Positions 5,720 through 38,378 of a stretch of DNA of 64,000 nt are shown here, piece after piece (position 1 is the stretch's first letter; every line of letters begins with the position of its first letter). A model generated the notes under the pieces. It was not told the DNA's origin, did no database searches, and worked only from the letters and a program-made list of their open reading frames with translations. This stretch comes from Bordetella pertussis 18323. Lineage in GTDB: Bacteria > Pseudomonadota > Gammaproteobacteria > Burkholderiales > Burkholderiaceae_B. The position numbers and the translations under genes are program-made. The stretch lies in assembly GCF_000306945.1 (NCBI RefSeq), contig NC_018518.1:3038001-3102000 (forward strand), read 5' to 3'.

Positions 5720-5796
5720 TGGCTGGGGAGGAAGGATTCGAACCTTCGCATGCCGGAATCAAAATCCGGTGCCTTAACCAGCTTGGCGACTCCCCA
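5720..5796 (-). tRNA. tRNA-Gln (anticodon UUG)
   Basis: The minus strand folds as a 77-nt tRNA including an encoded CCA. The acceptor stem is TGGGGAG/CTCCCCA with discriminator G. The anticodon arm is CCGGA-TTTTGAT-TCCGG with TTG at positions 34-36, and the T-arm contains GGTTCGAATCC. It is the usual tRNA-Gln between ispE and prs. Its 5' end is one base from the ispE stop codon, so it must be cut by RNase P from a joint mRNA-tRNA transcript unless it has a promoter inside ispE. Confidence 0.97.
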
Positions 5797-38153: not shown

Positions 38154-38187
38154 AAAAAAAAAGCCCGAGATCTTGCGATCTCGGGCT
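38154..38187 (-). terminator. Terminator of the candidate small RNA
   Basis: A perfect 11-bp stem pairs 38162-38172 with 38177-38187 around TTGC. Eight to nine T follow on the minus strand (38154-38162). Strong intrinsic terminator. Confidence 0.88.
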
Positions 38188-38344
38188 AAATCCACCAAAG
38201 GAGGAGGGTGGAGGAGACAACCGTGGCATGTCGGGATTGCGTCAGGCCTTGCGGCCCGGAAATCGCGGCAGTCGGGGTATCCATGCTTGCTGGCCTTGGG
38301 CCGGCGGTTCTGGCACCGCACCGTCTGCGTTTCAACATCCGATG
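38154..38344 (-). ncRNA. Candidate small RNA with CCUCC-loop hairpin
   Basis: A free-standing minus-strand transcription unit of about 190 nt. It has a promoter (38350-38378), a predicted start near 38343-38345, and an intrinsic terminator (38154-38187). Just before the terminator, TCCACC (minus strand, 38212-38207) pairs with GGTGGA (38196-38191) and displays the loop CTCCTCCTTT, with another CTCCTC just upstream. CU-rich loops of this kind base-pair with ribosome-binding sites in known CCUCC-type small RNAs of proteobacteria. A 50-codon frame (38338-38186, ending LLLWWI) fills the transcript but begins only 5-7 bases after the start and shows no family. I favour an RNA; a small peptide is the alternative. 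Confidence 0.6.
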
Positions 38345-38349
38345 TGCAA

Positions 38350-38378
38350 ATAGTAGAGGATTCTTTTGTGCGATGCAA
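38350..38378 (-). promoter_or_regulatory. Sigma-70-like promoter of the candidate small RNA
   Basis: On the minus strand TTGCAT (38378-38373) and TACTAT (38355-38350) are separated by exactly 17 bp. The -35 box overlaps a near-palindrome (ATGCAAGAAA/TTTTTTGCAT, 38373-38392) that could be an operator. Confidence 0.6.

Follow-up and report, generated by a model that had tools for sequence, protein, structure and literature searches.

The locus lies on the minus strand of a 64,000-nucleotide stretch of Bordetella pertussis 18323 (the window; NC_018518.1, positions 3,038,001 to 3,102,000), between a BP3151-type glycosyltransferase gene and coq7; the published small RNA S17 of Bordetella pertussis (PMC11722255, a preprint of 2024) has the same place, between BP3151 and coq7. 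In window coordinates its features are as follows:

38373..38378, minus strand: -35 hexamer TTGCAT, read from the sequence; PMC11722255 gives the same hexamer
38366..38378, minus strand: TTGCATCGCACAA, predicted PhaR-type operator with a TGC-N3-GCA core overlapping the -35, from comparison and the PhbF motif
38350..38355, minus strand: -10 hexamer TACTAT, 17 bp from the -35, from the sequence and PMC11722255
38154..38343, minus strand: S17L primary transcript, 190 nt, by computed length and by 5'-RACE, TEX and Northern blot in PMC11722255
38186..38338, minus strand: 50-codon frame, judged non-coding by frame comparison, holding the 32-residue ORF of PMC11722255 (ATG 38284)
38333..38340, minus strand: predicted leader stem, 5' arm GGATGTTG, at the start of S17L, by covariation
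38225..38233, minus strand: predicted leader stem, 3' arm CGACATGCC, with one bulged G, just 5' of the processing site, by covariation
38154..38220, minus strand: S17S processed form, 67 nt, by computed length and PMC11722255
38155..38219, minus strand: RF02278 match, model positions 1-64 of 64 (69.6 bits, cut-off 50, E 5.5e-12)
38191..38212, minus strand: 6-bp hairpin with an anti-Shine-Dalgarno CUCCUCCUUU loop, Site 2 of PMC11722255, by folding
38154..38187, minus strand: intrinsic terminator, 11-bp stem and T run, by terminator scan and folding

Elsewhere in the window a tRNA-Gln gene (anticodon ttg) is located at 5720-5796 on the minus strand.

The initial annotation, made from sequence alone, had proposed a promoter with 17-bp spacing, a body of about 190 nt, a 6-bp hairpin presenting CUCCUCC in its loop and an intrinsic terminator, and all four are present. 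TTGCAT-17-TACTAT agrees with the published 5'-RACE and in vitro transcription (PMC11722255); counted from a +1 at A 38343 to the final T at 38154, the RNA measures exactly 190 nt, and with a 5' end at T 38220 exactly 67 nt, the two sizes seen on Northern blots (PMC11722255). The hairpin arms TCCACC and GGTGGA (38212-38191, minus strand) form 6 bp around the loop CTCCTCCTTT, and the terminator stem of 11 pairs is followed by its T run. A generic promoter scan did not list the TTGCAT-17-TACTAT promoter because TTGCAT has three of the six consensus letters and the scan requires four. S17S folds at -29.5 kcal/mol, compared with -13.7 ± 2.7 for 200 dinucleotide shuffles, none of which is as good (z -5.9).

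Since the neighbours, the promoter hexamers and the exact lengths of 190 and 67 nt agree, the minus-strand RNA at 38154-38378 is almost certainly S17, a trans-acting small RNA of the RF02278 family. Location, promoter hexamers and spacing, the 190- and 67-nt forms, terminator and CU-rich sites are identical to those in PMC11722255, and no difference in the RNA was found. The RNA itself is therefore known and ordinary for its kind, so the novelty first claimed for it falls away; the find is a blind rediscovery, and the sequence reading was accurate. Beyond the published account, the present analysis adds a conserved promoter element, a covarying leader stem and the loss of the ORF in relatives.

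According to PMC11722255, S17L is made by sigma-A RNA polymerase and is processed by RNase E to the stable S17S, which binds Hfq; CU-rich single-stranded sites of S17S pair at or near ribosome-binding sites and lower expression. BP2158 is directly repressed, as demonstrated with compensatory mutations; deletion of S17 raises 91 genes, 70 of which have matching sites, and the named targets are transport and catabolic genes (PMC11722255). The idea of a stand-alone anti-Shine-Dalgarno repressor RNA of about 190 nt thus stands as to repression and Hfq binding, but the abundant form is the 67-nt product. S17 levels are higher in the Bvg+ mode, and a repressor of the S17 promoter that is linked to the Bvg- mode has been postulated (PMC11722255).

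The covariance model of RF02278 matches over its full length and above the curated Rfam cut-off, and at the window locus a hairpin with a CU-rich loop precedes an intrinsic terminator. A single copy was found in this genome. Of 200 sampled genomes of the taxonomic family, 186 have the RNA, as do 14 of the 15 genomes of the genus; the fifteenth is 73% complete. Among the 14 family genomes without RF02278, 13 also have no PhaR match, and ten of them are 0.7 to 1.7 Mb in size. The suggested kinship with alphaproteobacterial CCUCC RNAs does not hold: the RNA belongs to the betaproteobacterial RF02278, and the Rfam models for SorX (22.3 bits, cut-off 46.6) and SorY (22.2 bits, cut-off 111) score below their cut-offs, so this family was rejected. 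NmsRb of Neisseria (RF02877) likewise has a CU-rich hairpin and terminator, but was rejected at 36.4 bits (cut-off 52). In the parts of PMC5688073 and PMC4603805 that were available, ncS03, ncS05, ncS27 and ncS62 of Burkholderia cenocepacia, all of RF02278, share the two hairpins, CU-rich stretches and terminator, and ncS27 is also processed into a short form like S17; the Burkholderia homologues are said to help shut down metabolism upon nutrient deprivation, and these passages name no regulator. Rfam names RF02278 "Betaproteobacteria toxic small RNA", whereas S17S causes no impairment of exponential growth (PMC11722255).

Copy number varies within the family. In two Bordetella genomes (G132, G113) a further RF02278-like match is weak and falls below the cut-off (32.5 and 31.4 bits; L041 1501-1559, L042 1501-1559), Herbaspirillum seropedicae SmR1 has four RF02278 RNAs, genomes of genus g35 have 3 to 5 copies each, and genus g43 features tandem pairs a few hundred bases apart (L021 1501-2100 and others).

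The new part is the promoter element. Upstream sequences of relatives have a constant TTGCNNYGCA over the -35 box, in which the middle three bases vary; an A two bases past it is mostly fixed (95/95 in one comparison). The element occurs within 300 nt upstream of 96 of the 101 family copies with at least 150 nt of upstream sequence, and 94 of these 96 have a TANNNT -10 at 16-19 bp from it. Mononucleotide shuffles of 99 copies (230 nt each) gave a mean of 0.5 occurrences and the backwards pattern gave 0; the promoter copies are related to each other, and the counts and tests here treat them as independent. Part of the conservation of the first triplet reflects promoter constraint, as TGC overlaps the -35 hexamer.

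A second set of copies was collected from GTDB contigs through an exact 29-nt core of S17, to which at least 120 stretches correspond. Among the matches listed, TTGCNNYGCA is present in 97/116 (shuffles 0.85, backwards 0) and, after removal of the 29 copies common to the first set, in 69/87. It is found in 12/12 Pandoraea and 2/2 Paraburkholderia copies among those listed, and in 1/10 Cupriavidus, 0/4 Ralstonia and 0/2 Burkholderia; the two Burkholderia copies thus have the exact core without the PhaR-like element, unlike S17 of the window. Cupriavidus necator is a classical PhaR organism, though Cupriavidus copies mostly have no such element. Copies from Cupriavidus, Ralstonia and Burkholderia without TTGCNNYGCA mostly have a different element immediately 5' of the -35, similar to ATTTCGCARTGCAAATTT (L169, L174, L193, L196, L200, L202, L206 and L211; further, L216, L228, L239, L250, L253, L260, L263 and L266).

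A TGC-N3-GCA element is the core of the motif TG[N]TGC[N]3GCAA described, in the accessible part of PMC3206438, for PhbF, the Herbaspirillum repressor orthologous to PhaR, for which a footprint and repression of phaP1 and phbF are reported there. At the window locus, TTGCATCGCACAA matches seven of the nine specified letters of this motif, the TGC and GCA triplets included, and is the only TGC-N3-GCA site of the promoter. The genome has a PhaR gene and one phasin gene, and the phasin gene carries the same element: TTGCGACGCA lies 170 nt before its start codon and TGCAATGCA at -114. Of phasin genes, 19 of 22 loci were tested (one was incomplete and two were under the cut-off), and 17 of the 19 have TGC-N3-GCA within 300 nt upstream (12/12 in Bordetella, 5/7 outside; shuffles 1.5). 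Site pairs 54-57 bp apart make up 25/71 at S17 promoters and 15/25 at phasins; a second cluster of S17 pairs, mostly from Pandoraea, is near 197 bp. This resembles promoters controlled by PhaR/PhbF, which, as far as the passages of PMC3206438 and PMC9049629 go, have TGC-N3-GCA at the promoter and phasin-like paired sites; those passages mention no small RNA as a controlled product, and S17 would be one.

Genome-wide, TTGCNNYGCAHMA has 50 occurrences, compared with 13 for the backwards pattern. Thirty of the 50 sites were made into loci, with ORFs listed near nine and proteins scanned near seven, and these gave no clear picture. PhaR-like sites that overlap on the two strands were observed next to a gene for glutamate dehydrogenase and some 100 bp ahead of a DUF3141 gene (L044 1501-1515, L058 1501-1515).

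Absence of the element may in part go with absence of a PhaR match. A PhaR match is present in 181 of the 200 family genomes; TTGCNNYGCA is missing in 3/6 copies from genomes without a PhaR match and in 2/95 others (Fisher p 0.0011, with copies treated as unrelated), and p is 0.0013, again with copies treated as unrelated, after removal of the three of the 95 copies that come from genomes outside the 200-genome PhaR survey. The three losses are in G107 (a single contig, no PhaC match), G119 (a 91% complete assembly, no PhaC) and G057 (PhaC present, in an assembly of nine contigs). G107 and G119 retain the -35 TTGC and the -10 but have lost the GCA half, which the PhaR-positive genomes read from their genera still have. 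Of the three genomes that keep the element without a PhaR match, G193 and G194 have PhaC and are fragmented (310 and 290 contigs), so that PhaR may be missing from the assembly only; G186 is 86% complete and has no PhaC match. The two PhaR-positive copies without the strict motif have a one-letter variant (G172) and a second site further up (G086).

Repression of S17 transcription by PhaR (PhbF) through the predicted site over the -35 is, on this sequence evidence, the probable reading. Alternatively, another regulator with TGC-N3-GCA half sites may bind the promoter element with PhaR uninvolved, as PhaR binding is predicted from sequence, half of the six copies from PhaR-negative genomes keep TTGCNNYGCA, and the repressor postulated for the Bvg- mode could be a different protein (PMC11722255). 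This is considered rather unlikely; the phasin promoters share both the motif and the 54-57 bp pair spacing with S17 promoters, the motif decays in three genomes that all have no PhaR match, and the TGC-N3-GCA core is that of the published PhbF motif in the portion of PMC3206438 seen.

With PhaR as the repressor, the protein would bind TGC-N3-GCA over the -35 hexamer of S17 and repress transcription; nascent PHB would take up PhaR, which would then leave the S17 promoter, and S17 RNA would rise when carbon is stored. More broadly, it is reasonably likely that the PhaR regulon of many Burkholderiales includes the RF02278 RNA, that storage thereby sets free a broad brake on the translation of transport and catabolic genes, and that Bordetella PhaR is all or part of the missing repressor. 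If true, the site over the -35 would connect PHB storage with a translational repressor that is conserved. The promoter result is of greater importance than the RNA, as the S17 study left the repressor of the Bvg- mode open (PMC11722255); control by PhaR would fit that role, yet PhaR alone leaves the Bvg dependence of S17 unexplained. The term 'PhaR' has 0 occurrences in PMC5688073, PMC10987360, PMC11722255 and PMC7011215; it has two in PMC4603805, the one displayed place being 'Pharmaceutical', and none of the 12 'PhaR' places displayed, out of 48 in the PHA review PMC9049629, connects PhaR with a small RNA. These term look-ups, which are the only basis for the statement, suggest that a link between PhaR and S17 is absent from print.

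The placement of S17 between coq7 and the glycan genes, to which the initial annotation had drawn attention, could suggest that the RNA regulates coq7 or the polysaccharide cluster, in cis or otherwise locally. This is very improbable and was rejected: the S17 terminator stands ahead of the glycan genes, between the 32 nt at the 5' end of S17S and the start regions of coq7 and of four genes in the glycan cluster no exactly complementary run exceeds 5 nt, the duplex energies to these starts do not stand out from a background of 115 mechanical ORF starts (mean -15.1, with the lowest 5% under -22.6), and the targets named in the text of PMC11722255 lie elsewhere. The start regions of phaP (6 nt, -20.4), phaB (7 nt, -20.5, at a position 3 nt off the ATG) and phaR (5 nt, -16.1) are also inside this background and were dropped as S17 targets.

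That the transcript is instead an mRNA for a 50- or 32-residue peptide is less probable still, and was rejected: the 50-codon frame noted initially is open (ATG 38338 to TAG 38186), PMC11722255 notes a putative 32-residue ORF, and two of 23 copies examined (L027 and L003, both outside the genus) enter the core in the phase seen here, their frames being 35 and 39 residues long, but 13 other Bordetella copies, translated from this ATG, yield 8 to 61 residues and enter the core in differing phases, and past the first codons their products have little sequence in common unless the copies are closely related, and the S17S 5' end falls inside the ORF (PMC11722255). Codon-level conservation of the 50-residue frame, named beforehand, together with ribosome occupancy, as evidence that would refute the RNA, is hence not seen in these 13 copies. 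The conserved letters around the ATG belong to the covarying leader stem, which probably gives the structural reason for their conservation.

This stem is predicted from two boxes, GGAWG following the transcript start and TGCC preceding the processing site, which are both present in 74 of 103 RF02278 copies; the other 29 copies were dropped beforehand, and requiring the boxes already determines pairs 1 and 2 and, in part, other pairs. Two-sided changes are seen at pairs 4, 6, 7 and 8. With one copy for each of 30 genera, 98.75% of cells are paired, compared with 94.35 ± 0.58% when the 3' arms are swapped (0/5000 as high). The duplex energy is no better than that of shuffles (-12.1 vs -11.8), and the free minimum-energy fold of S17L in this species omits the stem (-76.9 free, -76.2 forced), forcing it costing only 0.7 kcal/mol. 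The support for the predicted stem is therefore the covariation test, the energy test being negative, and the pairing is put forward less firmly than control by PhaR. If formed, it would pair the sequence just after the start of S17L with that just before the cleavage site; the leader would be a structured, removable part of the RNA and not an ORF. In genus g24 (L076-L079) no more than about 60 bases separate the promoter from the core, and the RNA there approximates the short form without the long leader.
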